Shown: in pieces, positions 47,303-61,128 of the stretch
How the letters are laid out: every line of letters starts with the position of its first letter
Numbering within the stretch: position 1 is the first letter of the stretch
IMG/VR virus record: IMGVR_UViG_3300042939_000736
Coordinates: 124,001-188,000 of that record
Direction: 5' to 3' (one strand)
Origin: a virus
Length of the DNA stretch: 64,000 bases
Notes under the pieces: model-generated
The model's database searches: none
The model's input: only the letters and a program-made list of their open reading frames with translations
Told to the model about the DNA's origin: nothing
Position numbers and translations under genes: made by a program

Positions 47303-47387
47303 CTTTGTTTCCTATAAAACAAAGTGGTGGAGTCAGTCCAATTTGGACGGCCTGAAAAAAAGGGATCTTTTACGATCTCTTTTTTTG
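47303..47387 (+). other. Structured 3' region with three hairpins, last one a terminator
   Basis: Hairpin 1: CTTTGTTT/AAACAAAG (47303-47310 with 47317-47324). Hairpin 2: GTCCA/TGGAC (47336-47340 with 47344-47348), flanked by TCA/TGA. Hairpin 3: a 7-bp stem 47361-47367 with 47374-47380 and seven T, a terminator. No reading frame. Could be a stable 3' end or a small RNA. Confidence 0.5.
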
Positions 47388-47415
47388 TTTTATATTAAAA
47401 TTTTTATTATCTTTG
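47384..47415 (+). promoter_or_regulatory. Bacteroidota promoter TTTG-N20-TATCTTTG
   Basis: TTTG at 47384-47387 in the terminator tail, 20 nt, TATCTTTG at 47408-47415, ending 4 nt before the ATG at 47420. Confidence 0.72.
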
Positions 47416-47419
47416 TTTT

Positions 47420-47632
47420 ATGAAATTAACTAAAAAAGAACAATTATTTTTAGACCAATTAGAAAAAAATGGTGTAGTTTGGAATTTTGACCCTATATAC
47501 TTAGAAACCAAAGACAAAAAAGGTTTTGACAAGGTAATTGGTTATAAATCTTCTTTTATTGCCTACGACTTAATTGAAAAAGGTTTGATTAAAAAAAATC
47601 CCGAAAATCCATCAAGTTGGATCAAAGCTTAA
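47420..47632 (+). CDS. 70-residue hypothetical protein
   Basis: MKLTKKEQLFLDQLEKNGVV suggests a small winged-helix-like or helical start; the remainder (YKSSFIAYDLIEKGLIKKNP) reads like a second helix of a helix-turn-helix. It could be a small regulator but no family can be named. The start codon lies 4 nt past the -7 box. First gene of an operon with a P-loop kinase and two further genes. Confidence 0.55.
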   Translation: MKLTKKEQLFLDQLEKNGVVWNFDPIYLETKDKKGFDKVIGYKSSFIAYDLIEKGLIKKNPENPSSWIKA

Positions 47633-47636
47633 TACT

Positions 47637-48026
47637 ATGGAAAAAATATTATATATTGTAAGAGGGGTGCCGGGTTCAGGTAAAACAACTTTAGCAAAAG
47701 AATTAACTGCAAACGTGTTTGAGGCGGATCATTATTTTTATGATAATGATGGTAATTATAATTTCATTCCTTCAGAAATAAAAGAAGCACATAAAGAATG
47801 TCAACAGTTTGTTGGATATGCGATGGAATCAGGAATTAAAAAAATTGCAGTATCTAACACATTCACTCAAGAGTGGGAAATGGAACCCTACTTTGAGTTA
47901 GCAAAAAAACATGGGTTCAAAGTTTTTACTATCATAGTTGAAAATAGACATGGTGGTGTTAATCAACATGGAGTTCCCGAAGATAAAATAGAACAAATGA
48001 AAAAACGTTTTGAAATAAAATTATGA
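47637..48026 (+). CDS. P-loop kinase (AAA_33 / polynucleotide-kinase-like)
   Basis: 129 residues. IVRGVPGSGKTTLAKEL carries Walker A (K16, T17), followed by FEADHYFYDNDGNYNFIPSE, a block typical of small polynucleotide/ATP-dependent kinases related to the T4 Pnk kinase domain. AVSNTFTQEWEMEPYF and KVFTIIVENRHGG continue the fold. Length suits a stand-alone kinase without phosphatase. Possible RNA/DNA 5'-kinase in the repair set of this region. Overlaps the next gene by ATGA. Confidence 0.72.
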   Translation: MEKILYIVRGVPGSGKTTLAKELTANVFEADHYFYDNDGNYNFIPSEIKEAHKECQQFVGYAMESGIKKIAVSNTFTQEWEMEPYFELAKKHGFKVFTIIVENRHGGVNQHGVPEDKIEQMKKRFEIKL

Positions 48027-48925
48027 ATAGATTAGAAAGACTTAAGCAACAACATCAAGATCTTGATGTTTCTTTGATTGATATTATTTCTTTTTTAGAC
48101 CCAACGGATTCATATAAATATTTAGAATTTTTAATCAAAAATTTCAAAAATGAAAATGATTACTACAGCCCAAACAAAGAAGAATTTATGGGGTATATGG
48201 GTGTATTTTTATTTGGGTCTGGTGAAATTGAAACTTTGAATGAATTTGAAAGACATTCCAAGGCCAACCGAATTAAAAACAAAGATATTAGTTCATATAA
48301 TGATTTCTTAGAATTACATGAAGTTGTCAAGAAAGCTGAAGAAATTGAAAAAAGAAAACGTATTGAAAAAGAAATTATAAAAATACATGAAGATGACATT
48401 TGGTTAGTTTTGACACCATTAAGTTTTGAATCTGCTAAAATTTATGGGTCTAATACGAAATGGTGTGTCACTCAAGAAAAGTATTGGGTAGATTATTTAT
48501 CAACACACAGACTGATATATCTTATAAATAAAGAAAATGGGTGGAAGATGGCTTTTTCAAGAAATTTCAGATTAAATAATGGAAGAAGAAGTTTTGGGAA
48601 TGAAGTACAAGCTTGGGATCAACAAGATAAAGAACAAGATCCCATGTCCATAGAAAATATACCTGATGAAATCTTTTTGAAAATAAAAAAAGAGTTGCAA
48701 ATCTATAAAACTACTGGTGAGTTATGTGGAATAAAAAATGAAACGCTTTTGACTACTTCAGATTCTTTTCATGGTACAATTCATCATAATTCTCATATAA
48801 CAACAACAAGGTCTTTTGGTGAAATAATGGGTTTATACACACCAAATTCTCCAATAGATGGTTTAACATATAATAGTCCATGGTCACAATCGTCCGATAT
48901 CATCGAATTGGATGATTTACCTTAA
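48023..48925 (+). CDS. W-C motif domain protein (paralogue family)
   Basis: 300 residues. The N-terminal helical part (LIDIISFLDPTDSYKYLEFL) and KDISSYNDFLELHE align with the protein at 54809. The shared core is EDDIWLVLTPLSFESAKIYG with TKWCVTQ (W147, C148), then LIYLINKENGWKMAFS. A third, larger relative lies at 30719. The constant TKWC-LIYLI pattern suggests a catalytic or binding Cys, but no known enzyme is recognised. Confidence 0.58.
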   Translation: MNRLERLKQQHQDLDVSLIDIISFLDPTDSYKYLEFLIKNFKNENDYYSPNKEEFMGYMGVFLFGSGEIETLNEFERHSKANRIKNKDISSYNDFLELHEVVKKAEEIEKRKRIEKEIIKIHEDDIWLVLTPLSFESAKIYGSNTKWCVTQEKYWVDYLSTHRLIYLINKENGWKMAFSRNFRLNNGRRSFGNEVQAWDQQDKEQDPMSIENIPDEIFLKIKKELQIYKTTGELCGIKNETLLTTSDSFHGTIHHNSHITTTRSFGEIMGLYTPNSPIDGLTYNSPWSQSSDIIELDDLP

Positions 48926-48936
48926 AAATAAATTTT

Positions 48937-49590
48937 ATGGGATTCAAAAAAATTTTAACAACAGGAAAAGTATATATAACTTCAGATATACATTTTGGTC
49001 ATAAAAATATCTGTCGAGGTGTTACTAATTGGAGAACACAAAATGGTGAAATACCTGTAGAATCAACTAGGGATTTCCAAACAATAGAACAAATGAATCA
49101 AAGATTAGTTGATGGGATTAACCACTTTGTTGGTCAAGACGATACGTTAATTATTTTGGGGGATGTTTCATTTGGTGGATTTGATAATGTAGGGATTTTT
49201 TTAAGTCGGTTAGTTTGTAAAAATATTCATTTAATACTTGGGAACCACGACCATCATATTGAAAATGATAGAATGGGAATACAAAGTAATTTTTTAAGTG
49301 TACAACATTATTTGGAAGTTAATATTAATGGGGAAAATTTTGTATTATGTCATTACCCATTACAAAGTTGGCACGGAATGAATAAAGGGGTTATTCACCT
49401 TCACGGTCACGTTCATTTACCAGAAAGCCGTAAATTTGGGAATGGTAAAAAAATGGATGTTGGCGTTGATGGTAATGGTATGGATCCATATGACATCGAT
49501 GAAATTATTAAAATTATGAACAGAAGAAATATTTTTTCTGACATGGATGGCGACCATCATATGGATAATTTGGTTGGAATTGTTGGTTAA
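48937..49590 (+). CDS. Calcineurin-like metallophosphoesterase
   Basis: 217 residues. YITSDIHFGHKNI (D17, H19), ILGDVSFGG, LILGNHDHHI, LCHYPLQSWHG and HLHGHVHLP are the five metal motifs. This short form is common in phages and bacteria and is distinct from the gp47-like nuclease at 12285. It could remove 2',3'-cyclic phosphates or other phosphodiesters, which fits the RNA-repair genes near by. The C-terminal tail (FSDMDGDHHMDNLVGIVG) is an extra extension. Confidence 0.82.
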   Translation: MGFKKILTTGKVYITSDIHFGHKNICRGVTNWRTQNGEIPVESTRDFQTIEQMNQRLVDGINHFVGQDDTLIILGDVSFGGFDNVGIFLSRLVCKNIHLILGNHDHHIENDRMGIQSNFLSVQHYLEVNINGENFVLCHYPLQSWHGMNKGVIHLHGHVHLPESRKFGNGKKMDVGVDGNGMDPYDIDEIIKIMNRRNIFSDMDGDHHMDNLVGIVG

Positions 49591-49604
49591 ACTTTTTTTT
49601 TAGA

Positions 49605-49611
49605 TATTTAT
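49605..49611 (+). promoter_or_regulatory. Candidate late promoter element TATTTAT
   Basis: TATTTAT lies 6 nt before the ATG at 49618, inside an otherwise early-type region. Confidence 0.52.
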
Positions 49612-49617
49612 CTGAAT

Positions 49618-50874
49618 ATGAAAACTTTTATTTTAACAGAAAAACAATTTGATAAATTAAGTAAAAAACTTATTAGCGAAGCGGTTGGTGTACCTCAAGG
49701 TATTTTAGAAGCTTCAGAAAAACTATACAAGTTGATATCTGAAGAGTTAAAAAAAATAAATACTAAAGAGACAGAATATACTTTTTACATCAGGAATCAA
49801 AAATTAAAAATATCTGACATAGTTATAAAAACTATACATGTAACGATCAACGTTGAAGAGTTGGAAAGTTATGACGGTAAACCCGTAATTGCGTCCATGG
49901 GTGTTGCTAATGAATTTAATTTTGATGAAGGTATTATGATGCAGGTAAACAAAGTAAGTAAAGAAGTGCAATTAACCTTAAATTATATTGTTTCGGAAAA
50001 TTGGGAACCAAATGAATTATACGATAATTTTGTTTCAGATGAAATACAAACTATTTCGGTTATGTCTCATGAATTGAAACACAAATATGATAGGACTAAA
50101 AAAACAAAAGGTTTTGTTGGTGATATTTCAGACTACCAAGCTTATTCATCAGGTAGGCTTAGGTTTGGCATTCCTATAATTGATCAATTTATGAGATATA
50201 GTTATTACATTCAAAATGTGGAAAATCTAGTTAGACCAACTGAAGTCTCAACAAGAATGATCAAGAAAGGTATAAATAAAGAAACTTTTTATGATTTCAT
50301 CACAAATGATGAAACCTTTTTAGAATTAAAGGAAATTCAAAATTTTTCATATGATTATTTTATTAAGAGTTTATATGAACAAATGGAAGATATTGACAGT
50401 TTAATTGAACATGCTGGTGGGGATCCATCAACTATGTCTGAAGAAGAAAAGGTGGAAGGTGTTTTACAATTGGTTTATGTTAATTTGGCTAATCTTAAAA
50501 CTGATTTATTTGATCATTATTTTTATACTTCAAAAGAAAAAATTGATAAAATGTTTGGGGGTATGTTGAGGTCTCTTTTTGGTCAATCAGATAATTCCAA
50601 TGAAGGTAAAGAAAAAATTAGAAATAAGTATTGGAATTACGTTATGAAATATAAAAATAACGAAATAAAATTTTTCGAAGATGAATGTGAAAGATTTAAT
50701 TATGTTTCAACAAAACTTCTTAAAAAAATTAGTAAAATATATTCTTTAATTCCTGATGATAAAGAAGTTACCAATGAATCAATTATAAATTGGGAACTTC
50801 ATCACAAACTAATGGAAAAAAAATATGGTAAAAGAAAAATTCAAACAACATACAATTACAAAAATTTTAAATAA
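49618..50874 (+). CDS. Putative zinc metallopeptidase (HELKH) with LTE N-terminal motif
   Basis: 418 residues. MKTFILTEKQFDKLSKKLIS contains L-x-E and matches the start of the protein at 38120. ISVMSHELKHKYD holds an HExxH zinc site (H151, E152, H155), and NLVRPTEVSTR about 54 residues on supplies a candidate third ligand (E209), as in gluzincin-like peptidases. The rest is helical. A TATTTAT element just upstream suggests late expression and maybe packaging in the virion. The peptidase call is by motif only. Confidence 0.58.
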   Translation: MKTFILTEKQFDKLSKKLISEAVGVPQGILEASEKLYKLISEELKKINTKETEYTFYIRNQKLKISDIVIKTIHVTINVEELESYDGKPVIASMGVANEFNFDEGIMMQVNKVSKEVQLTLNYIVSENWEPNELYDNFVSDEIQTISVMSHELKHKYDRTKKTKGFVGDISDYQAYSSGRLRFGIPIIDQFMRYSYYIQNVENLVRPTEVSTRMIKKGINKETFYDFITNDETFLELKEIQNFSYDYFIKSLYEQMEDIDSLIEHAGGDPSTMSEEEKVEGVLQLVYVNLANLKTDLFDHYFYTSKEKIDKMFGGMLRSLFGQSDNSNEGKEKIRNKYWNYVMKYKNNEIKFFEDECERFNYVSTKLLKKISKIYSLIPDDKEVTNESIINWELHHKLMEKKYGKRKIQTTYNYKNFK

Positions 50875-51238
50875 AGTATTTCTAATCTTAATTTCTTTAT
50901 TTCTTTTGTCTTTTATTTTTTCTGAATTTAAAGAATACAAAGGAACCGCAACTTACTACGGACAACATTGGACAGGAAGACTAACTTCATCAGGGGAAAG
51001 ATTCCATGCAGATAGTTTGACTGCAGCCCACAAATACTTTAAGTTTGGAACAATTCTTAAAGTAACTAATACAATCAATGACTCAGTTCGTTATGTTAAG
51101 GTGAATGACAGACTACCAAAAAGTTCAAAATTTATAATTGATCTTAGTTATGGAACGGCAAAAGAACTTAACTTTTTGAAAAGAGGTGTAATTCCAGTCA
51201 TCTTAGTTCCTGTTGACACCGTAAAAATTGTAAAATAA
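50825..51238 (+). CDS. RlpA-like double-psi beta-barrel protein
   Basis: 137 residues, overlapping the peptidase gene by 50 nt. A basic head and one membrane/signal helix (VFLILISLFLLSFIFSEF) are followed by an RlpA-type barrel: GTATYYGQHWTGRLTSSGER, LTAAHKYFKFGTILKVTN and VKVNDRLPKSSKFIIDLSYG. RlpA proteins cut naked glycan strands at septa; the conserved Asp of VNDR is present. With the amidase and SLT this is the third cell-wall-active protein here. Confidence 0.8.
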   Translation: MVKEKFKQHTITKILNKVFLILISLFLLSFIFSEFKEYKGTATYYGQHWTGRLTSSGERFHADSLTAAHKYFKFGTILKVTNTINDSVRYVKVNDRLPKSSKFIIDLSYGTAKELNFLKRGVIPVILVPVDTVKIVK

Positions 51239-51262
51239 TTTTTCTAATCCAATTTAATTTCC

Positions 51263-51270
51263 TATCTTTG
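51263..51270 (+). promoter_or_regulatory. Bacteroidota-type promoter, -7 box TATCTTTG
   Basis: TATCTTTG ends 5 nt before the ATG at 51276; no clear -33 TTTG at 19-20 nt. Confidence 0.6.
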
Positions 51271-51275
51271 TTTCT

Positions 51276-51509
51276 ATGTGGACAACTAAAGAAACTAAAA
51301 GAGAGTATCGTGGGGTAACAATATGGAAGTTTGAAGGATCAAAAGTTAAAGACTCCTTCAGAAAAAGAGACCCACGCACATTTCAAAAAGACGACAGTAG
51401 ATTTACCAAATGGCATTCCTATCAGGTTGAACTATTTGGTGTTAAATACGAATCAGAATTGTTAAGAGATGTAAAAGAGTACATTGATTCAATCTTTGAT
51501 AAAATATGA
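51276..51509 (+). CDS. 77-residue hypothetical protein
   Basis: Basic protein (RKRDPRTFQKDDSRFTKWHS) with a C-terminal helix (LLRDVKEYIDSIFDKI). Start codon is 5 nt past the -7 box; stop overlaps the next ATG by 4 nt. Heads a run of small coupled genes to 53.5 kb. No family. Confidence 0.6.
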   Translation: MWTTKETKREYRGVTIWKFEGSKVKDSFRKRDPRTFQKDDSRFTKWHSYQVELFGVKYESELLRDVKEYIDSIFDKI

Positions 51510-51697
51510 AAAACCCCTGTAAAGAGTGTCCCCACTTTATTCGTAATCGTCATAATGATATGATTGTGGAGTTTGGAAAAAGAACTGGAAAAAAACACAA
51601 TTGTCATATGACTGAAGGAGTAAAAGATTTATGGAATGTTAAGAATGAAAAATTAGAATGTTATGGTTCAAAGAAAGATAATTTACGGAGTGTGTGA
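51506..51697 (+). CDS. Small Cys/His-rich protein (DUF6283-like)
   Basis: 63 residues. CKECPHFIRNRHN at 4-16, then KKHNCHMTEG and ECYG give a CxxCP...HxCH...C arrangement as in DUF6283 proteins (PCxxCPxR...HxCHxT...CxG). Likely a small zinc-binding domain. The next gene begins inside its 3' end (35-nt overlap). Confidence 0.6.
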   Translation: MKNPCKECPHFIRNRHNDMIVEFGKRTGKKHNCHMTEGVKDLWNVKNEKLECYGSKKDNLRSV

Positions 51698-51884
51698 TAA
51701 GACAGGATCTTGTGATTCATATTTTGGTTTTTTTAAAACCAAGTCAGACGCAGAACACGAAGTTGAGATACAAGCAAAACGACTCAAAGAAGACTTGGGT
51801 ATGATGGATATTGAAATCAAATCAGACCGAGCATTGTTCGGAGGTAAAGTAGTAATTGTTATTCACCAGTATATGTTAAGGTGA
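51663..51884 (+). CDS. 73-residue hypothetical protein
   Basis: MVQRKIIYGVCDKTGSCDSY and KSDAEHEVEIQAKRLKEDLG suggest a small alpha/beta domain. It overlaps the DUF6283-like gene by 35 nt and joins the next gene as TGATG. No family recognised. Confidence 0.55.
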   Translation: MVQRKIIYGVCDKTGSCDSYFGFFKTKSDAEHEVEIQAKRLKEDLGMMDIEIKSDRALFGGKVVIVIHQYMLR

Positions 51885-52249
51885 TGAAAAAAGTACAAAC
51901 TAAATTTGGAACCTATATAGATATGGAAACAAAAAGTAATACAGAATTAACCGGTGATAAAATCAAGGTATTTGTAGAGAGATTAAAAAAGATTGGTATT
52001 GAAGTTAAACTTGTGGGTAACTATCCTTGGGTTTATATTGATGAAATCTGTGGTATCAAAGTAAAAGAAAAGTTTGAAGGAAATCATGGGTTTACTCTAA
52101 TATTCTTACCTGCAAAAACTGACTCACCACCATCCGACTTCACAGATATAACGGAGATATTCAAACTAATACGAAAGTATATTAGACAAGCGAATCTTAT
52201 TGAATTAATGAAAATAGACGAAAAAGACGGAATGTATGACACTGAATGA
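51884..52249 (+). CDS. 121-residue hypothetical protein
   Basis: Start taken at ATG 51884 (TGATG overlap); a GTG one codon earlier is possible. KVFVERLKKIGIEVKLVGNY, VYIDEICGIKVKEKFEGNHG and FTLIFLPAKTD form an alternating beta/alpha pattern. The 3' end overlaps the next gene by 14 nt. Unrecognised. Confidence 0.58.
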   Translation: MKKVQTKFGTYIDMETKSNTELTGDKIKVFVERLKKIGIEVKLVGNYPWVYIDEICGIKVKEKFEGNHGFTLIFLPAKTDSPPSDFTDITEIFKLIRKYIRQANLIELMKIDEKDGMYDTE

Positions 52250-52625
52250 ATTAAGAGTTGGTAGTATTGTAACCCACCCAATTTTTGGAACACCTGTTGC
52301 TGTAAGGGCGATTGCTTTTAACGGATTATATATCGGAACTGAAAACGGTCTTCCACTTCATATCGATGACTTCAAACCTGTCGAAATAACTGAACAGATA
52401 TTAGAGTTGTTACATTTTGTTAGAATGGAAGCCGAAGCACCTGGTATTGGTGAATACGAGTGGTGGGAAACAGATACCTTTTCCCTAACGCACCTTTATA
52501 AAGGTTTATATGGTGTTGAAGGATTAAGTGGTATCAACCCAATTAGATATGTTCATCAACTTCAAAATGCGGCATTTGTTATTGATGGAAAAGAATTAGA
52601 TACGAAAGAATTATTATATTTGTAA
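52236..52625 (+). CDS. Bacteroidota-prophage-type hypothetical protein
   Basis: 129 residues. The order NELRVGSIV, ITEQILELLHF and NPIRYVHQLQNAAFVIDGKE follows a small protein common in Bacteroidota genomes and prophages (NELRiGNyv ... iryVHqLQNlyfaLtGkEL). Function unknown, but the family supports the host assignment. The next promoter box lies at the extreme 3' end of this gene. Confidence 0.68.
   Translation: MTLNELRVGSIVTHPIFGTPVAVRAIAFNGLYIGTENGLPLHIDDFKPVEITEQILELLHFVRMEAEAPGIGEYEWWETDTFSLTHLYKGLYGVEGLSGINPIRYVHQLQNAAFVIDGKELDTKELLYL
52615..52622 (+). promoter_or_regulatory. Bacteroidota-type promoter, -7 box TATATTTG, inside gene end
   Basis: TATATTTG overlaps the last codons of the preceding gene and lies 8 nt before the ATG at 52631; no -33 match. 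Confidence 0.45.
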
Positions 52626-52630
52626 AAGTT

Positions 52631-53044
52631 ATGGAAAAGAAAAGAATTTATTTAGATGATGTTCGTACACCAGTCGATAAAGACAATTGGATTGTGGTTC
52701 GTTCTTATGATGAGTTCGTTCAAAAGATTAATGAGGTTGGTATGGAGAATATTGAACTCATATCTTTGGATCACGACTTGGGTGATAGTGCGATGAAAGA
52801 GTGGTTACATGGTGTTGTAAGAAACTATGAAATCAACTACGATAATATCACCGAAAAGACTGGTATGGATTGTACTAAGTGGTTAGTGAATCAGTGGATG
52901 GATGGTAAACCTATTGTTGATGTTGTAGTTCACTCCGCAAACGCTATTGGATCTGCAAACATGATGGGTTACATCAACAACTACCGACACATCAATCGAC
53001 TACCACAGAATTGTAATAGAATATTTTGGGAACACACAGTATAA
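52631..53044 (+). CDS. Cyclic-phosphate processing receiver-domain protein (cREC)
   Basis: 137 residues. RIYLDDVRTP (D9, D10), VRSYDEFVQKI, ISLDHDLGD (D47-H-D49), GMDCTKWLVNQWMDG and VHSANAIGSANMMGYI match the cREC family, a receiver-like fold predicted in the literature to act on cyclic phosphates in RNA repair. It lies one gene before the RNA ligase, which supports that context. Confidence 0.72.
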   Translation: MEKKRIYLDDVRTPVDKDNWIVVRSYDEFVQKINEVGMENIELISLDHDLGDSAMKEWLHGVVRNYEINYDNITEKTGMDCTKWLVNQWMDGKPIVDVVVHSANAIGSANMMGYINNYRHINRLPQNCNRIFWEHTV

Positions 53045-53054
53045 AAAATTAGTA

Positions 53055-53579
53055 ATGGAATTAGAAAAATTAACAATGGACGAACTTATTTCTTTAAGAA
53101 ATAAAATTGAAGGACTTATTCATTCATATGAGGACGGTTATATCTACATATGTTCTGTTCGTCAGTTCGGTAGTGTTTGGGAAGAAAGACCTTCTAGTTT
53201 ATATTCTTTAAGGGAACTGTGTGATTCTTATTACGGAGATAATGGAATTGTGGATGTTTATACCAACAACCCGAATTTAGAATTTCCTGAAATGGAGTTT
53301 GAAAATTATGGTGATGTTATGTATATTGAATCTGAGTATGATTACAGAGAGTGGATTAAACACACTAAAGCTAAAAATCTTATTAAAGATGTGACACAAC
53401 GACTTGATGAGTGGGATGAAAGTAAAAATTTACCATTTAAGTACCGTCCTTCTTTTGCGCCACATTGGACAAGAGAAGATGTTAATGGATGGATTGAAGA
53501 ATTTGAAAATACTAAGTGGGATTTTGTTGAACCAAGATCAATAAAAATAAATTATCTTGAAGAAGATACTGACGAATAA
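53055..53579 (+). CDS. 174-residue hypothetical protein
   Basis: A helical start (LEKLTMDELISLRNKIEGLI) and a Tyr- and acid-rich remainder (YGDVMYIESEYDYREWIKHT). It is between the cREC gene and the RNA ligase, with a promoter for the ligase after it. No family recognised. Confidence 0.58.
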   Translation: MELEKLTMDELISLRNKIEGLIHSYEDGYIYICSVRQFGSVWEERPSSLYSLRELCDSYYGDNGIVDVYTNNPNLEFPEMEFENYGDVMYIESEYDYREWIKHTKAKNLIKDVTQRLDEWDESKNLPFKYRPSFAPHWTREDVNGWIEEFENTKWDFVEPRSIKINYLEEDTDE

Positions 53580-53590
53580 AAAAATATTAT

Positions 53591-53598
53591 TATTTTTG
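53591..53598 (+). promoter_or_regulatory. Bacteroidota-type promoter, -7 box TATTTTTG
   Basis: TATTTTTG fits TAnnTTTG and ends 4 nt before the ATG at 53603; the -33 box is not evident. Confidence 0.5.
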
Positions 53599-53602
53599 TA
53601 AA

Positions 53603-54736
53603 ATGGAAAATTTAAATAGTGTATGTTATGTTGGTTTTATAGGTGAAGTTCTATCAATAGAAGGCGCAGATAACATAGAATTGGTCTTAGTTAGTGGATG
53701 GCAAGCAATTACAAAAAAAGGTGAATACCAGGTTGGGGATAAGGTTGTAATTGCAACCACTGATGCTGTGATCCCAAAGGATTTATCTGATCTTATGCAG
53801 GTGACTAGCTACCTTCGTAAAGGTCAGCGAGTTAGAACCGTTAAACTTCGTGGGGTATATTCTGAATGTTTGTTAATACCGTTTAAGTACTTGGCACCAG
53901 AGTCTTTAGAGACAAATGTTGAAGAAGGTCACGACATGATGGGTATCTTAGGTATCACTAAATACGAACCTCCTGTTAAGATGGTTGAGATGAGTGTTGG
54001 TGGTAGAAAAATAAAATATCACCAAAACCCAAACTTCCATGTTTACTACAAGTTTCCTAACTTGAAGAATGTTCCTGAGTTATTTACTGAAGAAGATAAG
54101 GTATCTATAACTAGAAAAATTCATGGTACAAACGCAAGATACGGTATTGTTAAAAAGAAAAAAATTACAATTATTGATCGTATAAAAAAGTTTTTTGGTA
54201 ATGAATGGGCATTTTACGAATATGTTTACGGATCTCACAACGTTGAAAAAGGTTCTGATTCGCAAGGTTTCTATTCTACCGATGTTTGGAGAACAATTGC
54301 TGAAAAATACGAAATTAAACAAAAACTTTGGAAATATGTGAAATCTTATTATAGTCATAGAACATTTAAAAGTGGAATTATTATTTACGGTGAAATTTAC
54401 GGACACGGAATTCAAAAAAATTACGATTATGGATTACAAGAAATAAAATTTGTTGGATTTGATGTCGAAGTAGATGGTGAATACAAAAGTTTTTTTACTG
54501 AAAGAGGTATATTTGAAAGTTTGTCTTTACCTACGGTGGAACTTTTGTACACAGGATATTGGTCTAAAGAAAAACAAGACAAGTATGTGTTTGGAAATTT
54601 TATCGAAGGAACTAAAATTCCGCACGAAGGTATTGTTGTTAAGTGTTTAAGTGGTGATCGTCACAAAGTGGCAAAAGTTATAAATCCTGATTACTTAATC
54701 TACGGAGAAAAAAATAATGTTGGTGACTCCCATTGA
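53603..54736 (+). CDS. RNA ligase with N-terminal OB domain (DraRnl/DRB0094-like)
   Basis: 377 residues. An OB-like domain (about 1-110, with GWQAITKKGEYQVGDKVVIA) precedes the nucleotidyltransferase core: motif I ITRKIHGTNARYG (K172 is the AMP-accepting Lys), motif III region IKFVGFDVEVDG, motif IV PHEGIVVKC and motif V KVAKVINPDYL. This layout fits the DRB0094-type RNA ligases that seal nicked RNA. Phage RNA ligases repair tRNAs cut by host defences. The stop lies inside a terminator hairpin. Confidence 0.85.
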   Translation: MENLNSVCYVGFIGEVLSIEGADNIELVLVSGWQAITKKGEYQVGDKVVIATTDAVIPKDLSDLMQVTSYLRKGQRVRTVKLRGVYSECLLIPFKYLAPESLETNVEEGHDMMGILGITKYEPPVKMVEMSVGGRKIKYHQNPNFHVYYKFPNLKNVPELFTEEDKVSITRKIHGTNARYGIVKKKKITIIDRIKKFFGNEWAFYEYVYGSHNVEKGSDSQGFYSTDVWRTIAEKYEIKQKLWKYVKSYYSHRTFKSGIIIYGEIYGHGIQKNYDYGLQEIKFVGFDVEVDGEYKSFFTERGIFESLSLPTVELLYTGYWSKEKQDKYVFGNFIEGTKIPHEGIVVKCLSGDRHKVAKVINPDYLIYGEKNNVGDSH

Positions 54737-54752
54737 TGGGGTCACCTTTTTT
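54722..54752 (+). terminator. Rho-independent terminator overlapping the ligase stop codon
   Basis: Stem GGTGAC/GTCACC extended by CCC/GGG pairs across one unpaired T, with TGA of the ligase in the loop, then six T. Confidence 0.82.
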
Positions 54753-54808
54753 ACTTATAATTAAAAACAAACTATAATGGGAGAAGAAAACGACCAAAAT
54801 AAAATAAA

Positions 54809-55774
54809 ATGGGAATTAAAAAAATTAAAAAAGAAAATGATCAATTAAATTTAAATTTAATTGAAATGTTGGGGGCTTTTGATACAAGTAAAACAAAAAA
54901 ATACACTCAATTCTTAATCAAAGTTTTGAACAAAAGAATAAAAGAGTATGAAAATTACCCTCAACTTGTAGAAAATGAAAATGTTATTGATAAAATTTTA
55001 CCTTTGAATTCTTGGAAAAATTTACAGATTAGGAATTATGTTTGTGATTTTTTATTTTCTTGGAATCAAATGAAAACTTTCATTGAATTTTGTGAATTAA
55101 TGGAAAAAGGGTTAATTGAAGAAAATGACATCAGTAAATACGATTCATGGGAAATGTTAGAACATAATCTTTTTTATGCTAAAAATAAAGAAATGTTTAA
55201 AAAATCAAAAAAAGACATTAAGGTTATATTCGAAGATGAAAAGTATCTGATTTTCAAACCAACAAGTTATTTGGCATCATGTTCCTATGGTTATCAAACT
55301 AAATGGTGTACCGCAATGGTGAATGATCCAGATTATTTTTATCGTCACAGTCACAATGGTATTTTAATTTATTTGATTGATAAAAAAGAAAATAAAAAGT
55401 TTGCGTTTTATAAAAGAGTTTCTGATAATGATGTGGATGATCATGAACAGTATATTTTTAAAACTTTCAATCAGCAAGATAAACAAATAGATACTATTCA
55501 AACAGGATTACCTGTTGAAATATTGAAAGTAATAATGTTAGAAATGGACATTACGAACCCGACTAACTTACCAAATTATAAATTATTTTCTGAAGATGAA
55601 ATTTCAAAAATGAAATATTACATCAACTTGAATGAAGAAGTTACTGAAAATGTAACACGACCACGTTTTAGAAATATATACCGAAGGTTAGAAGTTCTAA
55701 GAAACAATGAAGAGATTAATGAAGCTGAAATTGTTTCAGAATCTGAAGAAAATGTTGAAAACACATCAATTTAA
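54809..55774 (+). CDS. W-C motif domain protein (paralogue family)
   Basis: 321 residues, full-length relative of the protein at 48023. Shared features: N-terminal helices (LIEMLGAFDTSKTKKYTQFL), NDISKYDSWEMLEH, core FEDEKYLIFKPTSYL with TKWCTAM (W166, C167), ILIYLIDKKENKKFAFYKRV and FNQQDKQ. It ends in an acidic, Asn-rich tail. ATG at 54777 opens only a 23-residue frame in another phase. Function unknown. Confidence 0.58.
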   Translation: MGIKKIKKENDQLNLNLIEMLGAFDTSKTKKYTQFLIKVLNKRIKEYENYPQLVENENVIDKILPLNSWKNLQIRNYVCDFLFSWNQMKTFIEFCELMEKGLIEENDISKYDSWEMLEHNLFYAKNKEMFKKSKKDIKVIFEDEKYLIFKPTSYLASCSYGYQTKWCTAMVNDPDYFYRHSHNGILIYLIDKKENKKFAFYKRVSDNDVDDHEQYIFKTFNQQDKQIDTIQTGLPVEILKVIMLEMDITNPTNLPNYKLFSEDEISKMKYYINLNEEVTENVTRPRFRNIYRRLEVLRNNEEINEAEIVSESEENVENTSI

Positions 55775-55786
55775 TTATAATATTAT

Positions 55787-55972
55787 ATGAAAAAAGTAGA
55801 AATAAAAGTTAGGTTTGCTAATGAAAGTAATTACTACAATAAAATAACTATTGACCCCCAAAAAATAGAAACCCCAACAATCCTGAATAAAGAAGTTTTT
55901 TTTACAATTGACGGTATAAGAGTTGCGACTAAATCAGAAGATTGGGAACAAATAAAAAAATTAATTAATTAA
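55787..55972 (+). CDS. 61-residue hypothetical protein
   Basis: A small beta-rich protein (MKKVEIKVRFANESNYYNKI ... VFFTIDGIRVATKSEDWEQI). It starts 12 nt after the W-C gene and is followed after one base by the next ATG. No family. Confidence 0.55.
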   Translation: MKKVEIKVRFANESNYYNKITIDPQKIETPTILNKEVFFTIDGIRVATKSEDWEQIKKLIN

Positions 55973-55973
55973 T

Positions 55974-56111
55974 ATGAAAAAATTGGATACATTTTTAACA
56001 TTTGTTTTTTTAATAAATGTAATAGGATCATTTTTTATGAGTGATTTGTTTGGTACTTTAGGATGGAGCTGTGCTTTACTAACACAATTAAGAATTAAAG
56101 AACTATTTTAA
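55974..56111 (+). CDS. 45-residue membrane microprotein
   Basis: ATG at 55974 to TAA at 56109-56111, sharing a base with the next ATG. The sequence has one strong hydrophobic helix (FLTFVFLINVIGSFFMSDLF) and a weaker second (LGWSCALLTQL). The coupled junctions on both sides support it. Role unknown. Confidence 0.55.
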   Translation: MKKLDTFLTFVFLINVIGSFFMSDLFGTLGWSCALLTQLRIKELF

Positions 56112-56542
56112 TGAGATATCATGCTAATTTTTATGTAAACAGATTAGTTTCTGAATGGTTAGAAAATGATAAGATAATCATTGCTTGTGATTTAGATGAT
56201 ACTATCATACCCAAAAACAATGAAATAAAGACAAACTGTGATAAGATGGTAAAACTTATCCTTGATTGTCAAAAAGAAGGTATTATATTTCTAATTAACA
56301 CTGCTAGAAGTAAAGAACAGTTAAAAACTGTAAAAGAAGAAGTTGAAAATCTTGGAATAAAAGTACATGGTGTGAATGAGATGCATCCCGAATGGAATAA
56401 AGACTATGGTGTAAATGGAAAGTTGTATGCTAACATTTTTTTAGATGATCGTGGAGGTTTTTGGGATTCATATTGGACACTATTTACAACTTTAACACAT
56501 GTAAAAATTAACAGAAAAAAAATATCAACAAGTAATGATTGA
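56111..56542 (+). CDS. HAD-superfamily phosphatase-like protein
   Basis: 143 residues. IIIACDLDDTIIPK carries motif I (D27, D29), FLINTARSKEQ motif II with the Thr, and NIFLDDRGGFWD the acidic motif IV. No large cap domain is present, so it is close to small polynucleotide 3'-phosphatase-like HADs. It could pair with the P-loop kinase at 47637 to prepare RNA ends for the ligase, but a sugar-phosphate role in the glycan cluster that follows is equally possible. Confidence 0.72.
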   Translation: MRYHANFYVNRLVSEWLENDKIIIACDLDDTIIPKNNEIKTNCDKMVKLILDCQKEGIIFLINTARSKEQLKTVKEEVENLGIKVHGVNEMHPEWNKDYGVNGKLYANIFLDDRGGFWDSYWTLFTTLTHVKINRKKISTSND

Positions 56543-57164
56543 TAATTATGAAATATTAGAAAACGGTCTTATTAGACAAATTAAAATATTGGATAAAATA
56601 CAAAGTTATGATTTCCAATACGTTGACGAAAGATATAATAAATATGGCGAAAAGGGCCCGCAAATGGCCGGTTTACGACTTGGTTATTTAATAGGTAATC
56701 TTGGTTATATTCCTAAATCTATTTTAGATATTGGATATGGTAATGGTGATTTTTTAAAAGTAACAGAACAGGGAATTGAATCATATGGAAATGACATTTC
56801 AGGATATCCAATCCCAACGGGATCCAAGTTTGTTAATAATATTTTTGATAAACACTATGATGTTATCTGTATGTTCGATGTACTTGAACATTTTGAAGAT
56901 ATTTCATTCGTTAAGGACTTAAGTTGTGATTATATATATATAAGTTTACCTTGGTGTCATAATTTTTCTGATGATTGGTTTGAAAATTGGAAACATAGAA
57001 GACCAGACGAACATTTGTGGCATTTCAATGAAACATCCATAACTAATTTTTTTAAAGAAATGGGATTTGAATTAGTAATACATTCAAACGTTGAAGATAT
57101 AATAAGAAAGTCAACAGATAATAACCCAAATATATTAACTTGTTTATTCAAAAAGACAAAATGA
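56535..57164 (+). CDS. Class I SAM-dependent methyltransferase
   Basis: 209 residues. SILDIGYGNGDFLKV is SAM motif I, CMFDVLEHFED is the post-II acidic motif typical of small-molecule or sugar methyltransferases, and HLWHFNETSITNFFKEMGF follows the Methyltransf_23 pattern. It overlaps the HAD gene by 8 nt and precedes glycosyltransferase-type genes, so methylation of a sugar is the likely task. Confidence 0.75.
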   Translation: MIDNYEILENGLIRQIKILDKIQSYDFQYVDERYNKYGEKGPQMAGLRLGYLIGNLGYIPKSILDIGYGNGDFLKVTEQGIESYGNDISGYPIPTGSKFVNNIFDKHYDVICMFDVLEHFEDISFVKDLSCDYIYISLPWCHNFSDDWFENWKHRRPDEHLWHFNETSITNFFKEMGFELVIHSNVEDIIRKSTDNNPNILTCLFKKTK

Positions 57165-58093
57165 GATTTGGATTCAAAATATCTGGATGTTTTGGAGATG
57201 TCTTATATTCAACACCAGTATTAAAATATCTCAGTCAGTGTCACCAAGATAAATTGGATGTTGAAACAAATTATCCTGAAATATTTGAAAATAATCCTTA
57301 TGTTGGTTTGATTTATAATCCTGAAAAAGGTGAAATTATGCCTCATGATCAAATTTTTTATGATTGTAATGGTCACAATTTTGGTGACATACAAAAACAA
57401 ATAAGAAAAATGCATTTAACTGATTATTGGTCAACTCATTTAGGATTTATTTTATCTCCCAAAGAAAAAACAATTGAATATTATCCATCCGAAATTGATT
57501 TTGAATTACCTGAAAGTAATTATGTGGTTATAAATCCATCAAAAACATGGGAATGTAGAACTTGGTCAAAAGAAAATTGGGAAAGACTTACAGAAAAAAT
57601 ATTGAATTTGGGAATCAAGGTTGTAGTTACTGGTAAAAACATTGTTTACGGAGATAATGATCAAAAAACATTTTTAAAAGTTGATAATTCAAATGTCATC
57701 AATTTGGTCGATAAACTTAACCTATCACAACTTTGGCACCTACTACAAAATAGTTTAATGGTCATAACAATGAACGCTGGTTTGCTACCTTTTGCAGGTT
57801 CTACAGACTGTAATATCTTACAACTTGGCGGAGCTATCGACCCAAGTTATAGAACTCCATTCAGACATGGTACACAAGATTATAAACATAAATTTATTGG
57901 TGGGTCTTGTAAGTTACTTTGTCAATCAGATATGAAATATAATGTTTTAGAGGACAAAAAAATAACAAGATGGAATGGATATCGATCACCTGGTTGTTAT
58001 GAAAATAAACCAACTTTCGAATGTCATCCATCCGTAAACGGGGTTTTTAATGAAGTTTTAGAAATTTTAAAAAATGAAAAAAAAATATATTGA
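57161..58093 (+). CDS. GT9-like glycosyltransferase
   Basis: 310 residues from ATG at 57161, overlapping the previous stop; an upstream TTG is less likely. FKISGCFGDVLYSTPVLKYL is the N-terminal loop of heptosyltransferase-type GT-B enzymes. VVINPSKTWECRTWSKENWE starts the second Rossmann domain, and VDKLNLSQLWHLLQNSLMVI with NAGLLPFAGSTD is the nucleotide-sugar site of GT9. It overlaps the next gene by 20 nt. Confidence 0.7.
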   Translation: MRFGFKISGCFGDVLYSTPVLKYLSQCHQDKLDVETNYPEIFENNPYVGLIYNPEKGEIMPHDQIFYDCNGHNFGDIQKQIRKMHLTDYWSTHLGFILSPKEKTIEYYPSEIDFELPESNYVVINPSKTWECRTWSKENWERLTEKILNLGIKVVVTGKNIVYGDNDQKTFLKVDNSNVINLVDKLNLSQLWHLLQNSLMVITMNAGLLPFAGSTDCNILQLGGAIDPSYRTPFRHGTQDYKHKFIGGSCKLLCQSDMKYNVLEDKKITRWNGYRSPGCYENKPTFECHPSVNGVFNEVLEILKNEKKIY

Positions 58094-58697
58094 TAGAATA
58101 GAACTTGTTAAGGATTTAGATACTTTTTATCCAAAAGGGAAAGGTGTTGAACTAGGTTCTTTTAAAGGGGAATTTGCTAAAATTATTTCAGAAAATTGGA
58201 GTGGTAAACTTTATCTTATAGATGTTTGGAGACCATTAGATTTTGACGAATATGACGACACATCTAACCATTTTAATCATTCAGACGCTTATAGAACCTG
58301 TATTGATAATTTAAAAGGTTATGAAAATAAAACATTTATGTTACGGATGGATGGAAACGAAGGGTCTAAACTATTTTCAGATGAATCATTAGATTTTGTT
58401 TATATTGATGCCAATCACACTTATGAATCGGTGAAAAATGATTTAGAAATTTGGTATCGTAAAGTTAAATCAGGTGGAATGATTATGGGTCATGATTATT
58501 TACCTGATTATTTTTATGAAGGTAAAGAAGGGAAGGATCAAGCTCTTTACACTTTTCCGAATGGAAAACCTGAAGAAGCTAAATACGCGGGCATGTTCGG
58601 TGTAAATCCGGCGGTTAATGAATTTTGTGAAAAAAATGATTATGAACTTAACAAAACTGAAGAATTTTTGGCTACATGGTGGTTCGTTAAAAAGTAA
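58074..58697 (+). CDS. Class I SAM-dependent methyltransferase (Methyltransf_24-like)
   Basis: 207 residues. GVELGSFKGEFAKIISENW is SAM motif I, LYLIDVWRP gives the ribose-binding acidic residue, and DFVYIDANHTYESVKNDLEI with GGMIMGHDY follow the Methyltransf_24 pattern of sugar O-methyltransferases. It lies within the glycan set, between two glycosyltransferase genes. Confidence 0.78.
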   Translation: MKKKYIDRIELVKDLDTFYPKGKGVELGSFKGEFAKIISENWSGKLYLIDVWRPLDFDEYDDTSNHFNHSDAYRTCIDNLKGYENKTFMLRMDGNEGSKLFSDESLDFVYIDANHTYESVKNDLEIWYRKVKSGGMIMGHDYLPDYFYEGKEGKDQALYTFPNGKPEEAKYAGMFGVNPAVNEFCEKNDYELNKTEEFLATWWFVKK

Positions 58698-58702
58698 TTG
58701 AA

Positions 58703-59839
58703 ATGAAAAAAATACCCATAGTTTTACATTGTACTGAAAATTATCTGAAAAATTCTTTGAATCTGATTAAATCGCTCCAATCATTCCACGACGACCTTAT
58801 TTACTATCTTTATACTGTAAATTTTTTATACGAAAGTAATGATGAAGATATTGTAAGTATATACTACAATAAAACAGGTATAGAAAATAGTATGTCATTT
58901 GTTGGAAATAAAAATGATACTGCTAACTTAAACATGTTTAAATCTGTTTTCTTGAAAAGTGAAATAATTTTGGACTCATTAATCAATCAAAAGTTAGATC
59001 AGGCAATTTACATTGATTCAGACATGATACCAACTGGGAATATTTCGTATTTGTTTCAATTTTTTACTGAATTAGAAGATTACCCCTTAATCCAAAAAGG
59101 TTTGTTTGAATATCAAATAAACTATGGTAGGGGAAATCCGTTTCATAACGGGGGATTTGATAAAACAAATATTTTAGAATTTCCTCTTATGGATTTATCT
59201 TACGTTCCTATTGAAAATAGAAGTCATTATTCGGTATCATCAATTATGATCTATAATCAAAAATGTTTACAATTTATTAGAGAATATGATTTTATAAATA
59301 AATTATCCAACAAATTAGATATAGAAAAAATCAAATATTATTTTCCATTTAGTGATGAAACAACAATCAATGTATTGTTATGGAAATACAAATTTGACAA
59401 AAGGTTACCCACCCTTCAAATGAACATTGACACATTAGAAAACGTAATTGAATTTTATGAATCAAATAATGACAGTGAAAAAGAAATTAGTCCATTTATC
59501 AGAGTACCTGACAAAAAAAATCGTAAGAACATACTTTTTTTTCACGGAGTCAAAGGAGAACTTTCAAATAAATTATCTAATTACCAAAGTGAAATATTTG
59601 ATTTTAAAATAGATTTTATTCAGAATAAAATTTTCATTTTAAGTAATTGCGATTTCCAAAGGGTGTTAAAATTTGTCGTGTTTGATCAAAATAAAGAAGT
59701 ATATACCTTTGAAAGTTACATTAGTAAAAATGAAGAATATTGGGTTTCCACTAATAAACTTCTGATTGACTATCAAAAAATAAAAATAAAAATTTTTGAT
59801 GAAGACAAACTAATTTATAATTATGAAAATATTGGGTAA
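58703..59839 (+). CDS. Putative glycosyltransferase (GT-A, DxD)
   Basis: 378 residues. The N-terminus IPIVLHCTENYLKNSLNLIK is a GT-A first strand and AIYIDSDMIPTG holds D105-S-D107. NPFHNGGFD and YSVSSIMIYNQKC are acceptor-region-like. The C-terminal 100 residues form an extra beta domain. Different in sequence from the DxD enzyme at 666. Last gene of the glycan set. Confidence 0.62.
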   Translation: MKKIPIVLHCTENYLKNSLNLIKSLQSFHDDLIYYLYTVNFLYESNDEDIVSIYYNKTGIENSMSFVGNKNDTANLNMFKSVFLKSEIILDSLINQKLDQAIYIDSDMIPTGNISYLFQFFTELEDYPLIQKGLFEYQINYGRGNPFHNGGFDKTNILEFPLMDLSYVPIENRSHYSVSSIMIYNQKCLQFIREYDFINKLSNKLDIEKIKYYFPFSDETTINVLLWKYKFDKRLPTLQMNIDTLENVIEFYESNNDSEKEISPFIRVPDKKNRKNILFFHGVKGELSNKLSNYQSEIFDFKIDFIQNKIFILSNCDFQRVLKFVVFDQNKEVYTFESYISKNEEYWVSTNKLLIDYQKIKIKIFDEDKLIYNYENIG

Positions 59840-59857
59840 TATAAAATGTTAATTCAA

Positions 59858-59864
59858 TATTTAT
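59858..59864 (+). promoter_or_regulatory. Candidate late promoter element TATTTAT
   Basis: TATTTAT lies 4 nt before the ATG at 59869. A second copy (59864-59870) overlaps it and the start codon. Confidence 0.48.
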
Positions 59865-59868
59865 ATTT

Positions 59869-60498
59869 ATGAAATTTTTATTGAAAGAATCACAAATTGA
59901 CAGTTTATCAAAAGAAATATTAAAATCTGTAAATAACATAGGTTATTTTGATACTTTATTAAGATACAAATTTCCATTTAAAGCCGCAAGTATATTTTTA
60001 AAACCAAAAAATAAAGAATATTTCACCCCGAAGGAATTAACTGAAATAATGTATTATTATGTTTTTTATGCAAAACAAATACCTAGCAGAATAGAATATA
60101 AAAATTTTATTATTGAAAACAGGGAAACCGATTCTGAAGGTTTTTATTGGGACACGGACATAATAAAAAATCCAAAAAAAAAGTCATTAACTGAAACTTG
60201 TTTTGGATATGCCCAACCATTTTGGGAAGACAAAAAAATTAGTTATTTTGGTAATTTAACCCAAATGCTTTTAGTCGCTCGATTTGATTTCTATACTAAA
60301 GGTGATTGGGCTGATCCTGATGAAGAATACATCGAAGAAGATAAATTTTCCAAAAGTTACCAATTTGATATGTCAGGTCTAAAGTTTAGAACCTTGGATG
60401 AAGCAAAAAATTGGTATTTGAATGATTACCCAAAATTAGTAGTTGAATTTGCAAATGATTTTTTTGAAAGTGCAAGAACTTTTGAGGAAAATAACTGA
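59869..60498 (+). CDS. Late protein with LxE-type N-terminal motif
   Basis: 209 residues. MKFLLKESQIDSLSKEILKS is a variant of the MK..LTExQ start seen at 38120 and 49618, with LKE as L-x-E. The body is aromatic and acidic (IMYYYVFYAKQIPSRIEYKN, PDEEYIEEDKFSKSYQFDMS). Directly preceded by TATTTAT. Candidate internal virion protein; no enzyme motif. Confidence 0.52.
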   Translation: MKFLLKESQIDSLSKEILKSVNNIGYFDTLLRYKFPFKAASIFLKPKNKEYFTPKELTEIMYYYVFYAKQIPSRIEYKNFIIENRETDSEGFYWDTDIIKNPKKKSLTETCFGYAQPFWEDKKISYFGNLTQMLLVARFDFYTKGDWADPDEEYIEEDKFSKSYQFDMSGLKFRTLDEAKNWYLNDYPKLVVEFANDFFESARTFEENN

Positions 60499-60543
60499 TT
60501 ATTTTATTTGTAAAATTACTTTTTGTTTATTATATTTACATCC

Positions 60544-61128
60544 ATGAAGATAATCTTTTTAGATAACGACGGTGTAATTTGTCTTTCTACTAATTGGGGG
60601 GGACGAACAAAAAAATGGGCGAAATACCGTTCAGCAAATCCCGACAGTAGTAGGGAAAAGAAAGACGCCCCTGTATTTGTTCGATTTGACGACTTTGATA
60701 AAAAGGCGATTAAGATTCTTAATGAGATAATTGAAGAAACAGGTTGTGAGATTGTTGTAAGTTCTGATTGGAAGTTACATGCGACATTAGAAGAACTTGG
60801 GGATTACTACGAAAGTCAGGGAATAATCAAACGTCCAGTTGCCGTAACACCAAACATTCAAAATTGTACCGTTCATGGTAATTTATTCATATGGTCACCA
60901 CGATGGGATTTAGAACAAACAAGAACTATTGAGATCAGACAATACCTACACGATCATCCTGAAGTAACACACTGGGTTTCAGTTGATGATTTGAACATGG
61001 GTAAGATTGGTGAACCATGGAAAGACGAATGGGCGATTGATAACTTTGTTCTTACATCAAGATCAAGTGAAGGAATTAAACAATCTGGTGTTAAAGAAAA
61101 AATAATTAAATATTTGAAAAATGACTAA
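60544..61128 (+). CDS. HAD-superfamily protein of the RNA-repair (HAD_SAK) type
   Basis: 194 residues from ATG at 60544; an earlier in-frame ATG at 60523 is less likely. MKIIFLDNDGVI has D7 and D9 of motif I, KAIKILNEIIEETGCEIVVS with SSDWK is motif II, and HWVSVDDLNMG motif IV. The spacing and the RTIEIRQYLHDHPEV block fit the HAD family found in Swiss-army-knife RNA repair proteins, which trims RNA ends. Overlaps the next gene by 8 nt. Confidence 0.7.
   Translation: MKIIFLDNDGVICLSTNWGGRTKKWAKYRSANPDSSREKKDAPVFVRFDDFDKKAIKILNEIIEETGCEIVVSSDWKLHATLEELGDYYESQGIIKRPVAVTPNIQNCTVHGNLFIWSPRWDLEQTRTIEIRQYLHDHPEVTHWVSVDDLNMGKIGEPWKDEWAIDNFVLTSRSSEGIKQSGVKEKIIKYLKND

Follow-up and report, generated by a model that had tools for sequence, protein, structure and literature searches.

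A candidate heal-and-seal RNA repair cassette with an Rnl5-type ligase in a jumbo phage record

We analysed a 64,000-nucleotide stretch of DNA (the window; bases 124001-188000 of the 290,710-base virus record IMGVR_UViG_3300042939_000736), in which a first-pass annotation had described six genes as a scattered RNA-repair toolkit. Our results point, with a probability of about 0.7, to a phage heal-and-seal RNA repair cassette with its activities placed on separate proteins, of which a P-loop kinase, a metallophosphoesterase, a cREC domain protein and an RNA ligase form the best-supported unit. Since the genes for kinase, phosphoesterase and RNA ligase stay linked across many unrelated phages, the kit is probably a real repair set against host RNA-cutting defences; we infer its enzymatic activities, the order of its steps, its RNA substrate and its anti-defence role alike. 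All six genes are open reading frames (ORFs) at the coordinates and of the domain families first assigned to them, the HAD match at 56111 being weak. Their grouping as a repair set goes beyond chance where the kinase, phosphoesterase and ligase are concerned; for cREC this holds moderately, for the HAD_SAK protein it is weaker, and for the 56111 HAD it finds no support. The label "scattered" was misleading, as the genes from kinase to ligase form a contiguous same-strand run (gaps ≤37 nt) with both HAD genes outside it (Table 1).

Linkage of repair genes in distant phages

At 23 of 25 non-redundant kinase loci an RNA ligase lies within 10 kb of the kinase, compared with eight of 36 control loci anchored on thymidylate synthase, and the phosphoesterase does so at 15 of the 25 loci against six of the 36 controls (p 4e-8 and 6e-4, respectively, values to be read as strong indications and not as exact). 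Neither cREC (7/25) nor HAD_SAK (3/25, against 6/36 controls) was significantly enriched at the kinase loci, and HAD_SAK was rejected as a general partner of the kinase. In large records that fall outside the close clade, pairs within 10 kb of each other are kinase and phosphoesterase in eight of ten (0.84 expected), kinase and Rnl5 ligase in 6/9, Rnl5 ligase and cREC in 5/9, and kinase and HAD_SAK in 4/7, with HAD_SAK linked also to the phosphoesterase in such distant records. A Nudix gene, which is an accessory gene adjoining the cassette in the close clade and served as a control (distances compared by hand), was within 10 kb of the kinase in none of six.

Proteus phage Mydo has a phosphoesterase followed by two genes and then by RNA ligase, cREC and kinase, with one further gene before Sir2, a neighbourhood already described by Iyer et al. 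(PMC7824862; PMC9503650). Phosphoesterase, ligase and kinase are also clustered in Pseudomonas phage PseuGes_254 and Vibrio phage K354, and all three phages carry a T4 Rnl1-type ligase, from a family other than that of the window ligase. A natural fusion of kinase and Rnl1 (431 residues) was found at one locus, L199, and a compact version of the cassette in G026 and L240, where phosphoesterase, kinase, Rnl5 ligase, cREC and HAD_SAK lie within 6 kb (G026). In proteobacterial phages (L177, L179 and kinase-anchored loci) the neighbours of the cassette include genes for nicotinamide phosphoribosyltransferase and ribose-phosphate pyrophosphokinase, with Macro- or Sir2-like genes also present at times (Macro and part of the others were named from sequence); such NAD-rebuilding and Macro/Sir2 neighbours would fit a counter-defence setting.

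Predicted functions of the kinase, phosphoesterase and ligase

All six proteins have their catalytic motifs, which are conserved in relatives for the kinase, phosphoesterase, cREC, ligase and HAD_SAK (the 56111 HAD was left out of the alignments). The kinase matches AAA_33 (E 7e-11) and phrog_2071, named ATPase (6e-40), and its profile matches CthPnkp (E 4e-5), T4 Pnk (E 7e-4), a fungal kinase and Pnkp1 kinase domains; among relatives the Walker A motif and an acidic residue are invariant. It is a single domain, and a fused HAD 3'-phosphatase in the style of T4 Pnk was not found in it. The phosphoesterase matches Metallophos (E 5e-7) and phrog_547 (5e-45). Profiles were required to reach the PDB relatives of both proteins; single-sequence PDB searches with the kinase, phosphoesterase and cREC returned no match.

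The ligase matches RNA_ligase (PF09414, E 1e-13), the PHA02142 OB fold (2e-13) and phrog_968 (1e-57), a broad profile matched the Naegleria RNA ligase over the full length (E 4e-88), and its AF2 model (pLDDT 83) matches Naegleria RNA ligase structures (E 9e-22, TM 0.68/0.74). It has the architecture by which Rnl5 is recognised, an N-terminal OB joined to a nucleotidyltransferase domain over the full length, whilst K172, E264, E342-G343 and K358 (motifs I and III-V) are invariant in 25 sequences and the OB part weakly resembles Trbp111-type tRNA-binding domains. Judged from sequence and model, the ligase is of the Rnl5 type (Naegleria/Deinococcus type), not T4 Rnl1. Its score against NCBIfam DRB0094 (E 4e-34, 118 bits) is below the curated cut-off of 151, and we class it as a diverged relative of DRB0094, not as that equivalog.

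T4 uses an Rnl1-type ligase on tRNA loops, and DraRnl, an Rnl5 enzyme, is a nick-sealing ligase. The title of PDB entry 5cot also gives nick-sealing for a characterised Rnl5 enzyme. Because the characterised Rnl5 enzymes are nick-sealing, the substrate here may be broken duplex RNA rather than a T4-type anticodon loop, and the analogy first drawn with T4 and its reversal of anticodon nuclease attack is weaker than was claimed, since the tRNA-loop ligase of T4 is of the Rnl1 type.

Two variations of the ligase gene were observed. An insert splits the gene at one locus (L352:7994-8795), where the reading resembles an HNH/NUMOD3-type homing endonuclease and an Rfam search of the insert gave no intron or other RNA family match. 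At three further loci (L086, L088 and L260) the intact ligase gene is followed by an incomplete copy of its C-terminus in tandem.

cREC and the two HAD proteins

The cREC protein matches cREC_REC (PF20274, E 1e-21), and its paired acidic residues and second aspartate (D9, D10 and D59, A7 numbering) are invariant. Among close relatives (80 loci with ligases 70-100% identical to the window ligase), 69 extend 3 kb or more upstream of the ligase and 43 of these have cREC, 31 at ≥70% identity and 12 at <50%, mostly in a slot directly upstream of the ligase and in a few downstream. It is present in one immuto strain and replaced in the other (3-5A vs. 2-6A), and looks like a fast-changing gene which has been repeatedly replaced. 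HAD_SAK matches HAD_SAK_2 (PF18143, E 7e-21) with its DxD, SSDW and VDDL motifs, gave chance matches only in a single-sequence PDB search, and lies downstream of the ligase in 38 of 46 close relatives. The 56111 HAD (Hydrolase_3, E 1e-6, a weak match) was rejected as a member of the cassette for its poor conservation (15 of 46 downstream flanks).

cREC is moderately linked to the cassette and HAD_SAK more weakly. The coming and going of cREC in two sequence classes, the presence of any ligase near it at only nine of 22 cREC loci, and published work which also finds cREC in NAD/ADP-ribose contexts give real weight to a division of labour in which kinase, phosphoesterase and ligase repair RNA, whilst cREC and HAD_SAK instead destroy cyclic-nucleotide or ADP-ribose defence signals. 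We hold this to be a serious contender, if short of an even chance; however, Mydo has cREC flanked by ligase and kinase, five of the nine distant records place it no more than 10 kb from Rnl5, and in most relatives that have it cREC directly precedes the window-type ligase, all of which weigh against this division.

Conservation in close relatives

The kinase and phosphoesterase are kept or missing as a pair: of the 56 relatives whose sequence reaches 8 kb or further upstream of the ligase, 53 carry both, three carry neither and none carries one only, the ligase being present with both absent in L016, L061 and L077. The independent variation named in the first-pass annotation as grounds for doubt is thus not seen for this pair, and is seen in part for cREC, which is sometimes displaced, and for the HAD genes.

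Close relatives alone are weak evidence, because non-repair neighbours are equally conserved (e.g. the gene at 51506, in 28 of 28), and the region also accepts inserts such as a glycosyl/methyltransferase block. Both observations favour a reading of these genes as unrelated nucleotide-handling accessory genes which share a variable region of jumbo phages. We consider this improbable, and for the core three genes it is already disfavoured, as the linkage holds in unrelated phages with different ligases but is absent for the Nudix control, and as kinase and ligase occur fused.

Several points nevertheless weigh against the repair cassette. In the linkage statistics related records count as independent and placement is uniform under the null, G003 (272 kb) and L077 carry the ligase without the other parts, and at 13 of the 22 cREC loci no ligase lies within 10 kb. 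The phosphoesterase has no close sequence similarity to the Pnkp phosphoesterase and its sole strong PDB relative, aq_1665, was deposited as a hypothetical protein, so that its healing role rests on linkage.

Proposed mechanism

In the proposed pathway, RNA cut by a host or rival nuclease would end in a 2',3'-cyclic phosphate and a 5'-OH. The cyclic phosphate would be opened by the metallophosphoesterase, by the cREC protein or by both, and the phosphoesterase, perhaps with help from HAD_SAK, would strip the phosphate that remains and so yield a 3'-OH. Using ATP, the small P-loop kinase would place a phosphate onto the 5'-OH, after which the Rnl5-type ligase would self-adenylate at K172, activate the 5'-phosphate and close the break. 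RtcB could bypass the healing steps, and it was looked for and not found in 35 large records. The earlier proposal that end healing and sealing are borne by separate genes stands, as a prediction from the sequences, well for the kinase, metallophosphoesterase and ligase and moderately for cREC, and is not supported for the 56111 HAD.

A more extended scheme, which we put forward as speculation with a small chance of being right in full, is that one kinase-phosphoesterase pair serves interchangeable ligases (Rnl1 for tRNA loops elsewhere, nick-sealing Rnl5 here), that the cassette mends breaks in base-paired RNA (tRNA stems, ribosomal RNA or other duplexes) and that cREC is a new class of 2',3'-cyclic phosphodiesterase. 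Another reading gives the ligase a part in the phage's own RNA processing (introns, circular RNA) or in a structural task, instead of the repair of defence damage. It is hinted at by the PHROG name of the Rnl1-type ligase, which gives the T4 tail-fibre attachment role, and by the homing-endonuclease-like insert in the L352 ligase gene, but is very improbable, as such tasks need no 5' kinase or healing enzymes, yet these travel with the ligase.

Gene block and transcription signals

Table 1 Features of the candidate repair cassette and its surroundings (window coordinates).
Feature	Position	Strand	Basis
Terminator-like hairpin before gene block	47355..47386	+	13 pairs, T-rich tail
Bacteroidota-type promoter, TTTG-N20-TATCTTTG, before gene 47420	47384..47415	+	Motif
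First small gene of block in this strain, 70 aa, no assigned function	47420..47632	+	ORF
Stand-alone P-loop kinase, 129 aa, predicted 5'-OH RNA kinase	47637..48026	+	Family match, profile
TKWC-motif protein between kinase and phosphoesterase	48023..48925	+	ORF, motif
Metallophosphoesterase (phrog_547), predicted 2',3'-cyclic phosphodiesterase and/or 3' phosphatase	48937..49590	+	Family match
cREC domain protein, predicted cyclic-phosphate hydrolase	52631..53044	+	PF20274
Rnl5-type ATP-dependent RNA ligase, OB + nucleotidyltransferase, motif I lysine K172	53603..54736	+	Profiles, model
Intrinsic terminator overlapping ligase stop codon, T6 tail	54722..54746	+	Hairpin; many relatives
Small HAD hydrolase	56111..56542	+	Hydrolase_3 (weak)
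HAD_SAK_2 phosphatase, possible accessory 3'-phosphatase	60544..61128	+	PF18143; ATG start, ORF opens at TTG 60523

The kinase, metallophosphoesterase, cREC and ligase genes are bracketed by a terminator and promoter (47355-47415) on one side and the ligase-end terminator (54722-54746) on the other. Of the 41 distinct regions in front of the kinase gene in relatives, 32 contain TAnnTTTG, against a background of 5.5%, and in the window the cREC gene has a promoter-like element, TATATTTGTA, 16 nt upstream, the ligase gene likewise having one of its own. The hairpin at the ligase end occurs in many relatives, in two stop-codon forms, and passed a strict terminator threshold in 20 of 58 relatives examined; its covariation is modest, with 90% of cells paired as opposed to ≤51% when slid, and with changes on both sides in two pairs only. 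A strict single operon across all relatives was rejected, as 19 of the 58 carry an internal terminator-like hairpin in the kinase-ligase interval. Because of these internal hairpins in about a third of relatives and the promoter-like elements of cREC and ligase, one or more transcripts are possible.

Several other genes in and around the block are less constant. The small gene at 47420 has a counterpart in ten of the 80 relative loci and is missing from most, and the TKWC-motif protein at 48023 is kept in 35 of 80. The latter is one of three paralogues with a YGxxTKWC motif (the others at 54809-55774 of the window and L009:18588-19802), which have no Pfam match; the 48023 protein has no NCBIfam match either, and a model of the 54809 protein (pLDDT 71) gave no significant PDB match. 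Among the fetched jumbo-phage loci, 133 ORFs are related to these proteins. Between the ligase region and HAD_SAK lies a block of methyltransferase and glycosyltransferase genes (56535-60498), most of which occur in ~3 of 80 loci (the closest strains only), and the methyltransferases at 56535 and 58074 sit inside this strain-specific insert.

Genome context and host

The record is described as T4-like, with a T4-like terminase located in L002, and has 22 tRNA genes at ~265-271 kb, none inside the window; an Rfam scan of the window found no RNA families, and a nucleotide similarity search of named phages gave no match. The Bacteroidota-type promoter-like motif TAnnTTTGTA lies upstream of 18 genes in the whole record (G000), compared with ~2.6 expected, and the closest named relative of the cREC protein is from a Flavobacterium phage (75.6%), because of which the host is probably a Bacteroidota bacterium. 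A T4-type late-promoter-like motif, TATTTATA, occurs ≤80 nt upstream of 38 genes of the record, against ~4 expected. Several proteins (38120, 49618 and 59869 in the window, and other ORFs of the record) start with leaders of the kind MK..ILTE.Q, which may direct proteins to the virion or mark them for processing.

Significance and comparison with known systems

Iyer et al. 2021 (PMC7824862) and 2022 (PMC9503650) predicted ligase, kinase, cREC, SAK-type HAD and calcineurin-like phosphoesterase to be parts of jumbo-phage RNA repair. As the general idea of such toolkits is already published, the cassette described here is a variant, Rnl5-based and with healing split over separate genes. To this our analysis adds the Rnl5-based version, a healing pair common to unrelated ligases, the kinase-ligase fusion, a tested boundary of the set (56111 HAD excluded, HAD_SAK uncertain) and the transcription signals. 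If the repair reading is correct, jumbo phages would have a small, testable gene set with which to reverse RNA cuts made by host defences, with neither T4 Pnk nor RtcB, cREC and the phrog_547 phosphoesterase, as yet uncharacterised families, would gain candidate activities, and the choice of ligase may match the kind of RNA break which the phage faces. All the proteins are small, so that reconstitution of the pathway in vitro may be feasible.

The V5/Mydo type of Iyer et al. is similar in that an ATP-grasp RNA ligase, a nucleotide kinase, cREC and sometimes a calcineurin-like phosphoesterase share one neighbourhood, and their SAK-family HAD phosphatases are likewise predicted healers; the ligase here is however Rnl5-type where theirs is T4-like, and Sir2, KptA and 2H (PF02146, PF01885 and PF13563) were searched for in this record and not found. 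With T4 Pnk and Rnl1 the cassette shares a 5' kinase, end healing and ATP-dependent sealing, but its kinase has no fused phosphatase, healing lies on other genes and the ligase is of another family. The bacterial Pnkp-Hen1 and Pnkp1-Rnl-Hen1 systems (PMC4411300) also combine kinase, phosphatase and ligase, and the kinase profile matches CthPnkp and Pnkp1, although in Pnkp-Hen1 the activities are on a single polypeptide and here on separate genes, with a phosphoesterase of another subfamily. Finally, Naegleria NgrRnl and Deinococcus DraRnl share the N-terminal OB and nucleotidyltransferase domains, with a full-length profile and fold match, whereas the ligase here is phage-encoded within a healing cassette, has 377 aa, and carries KIHG in place of KxDG as motif I.

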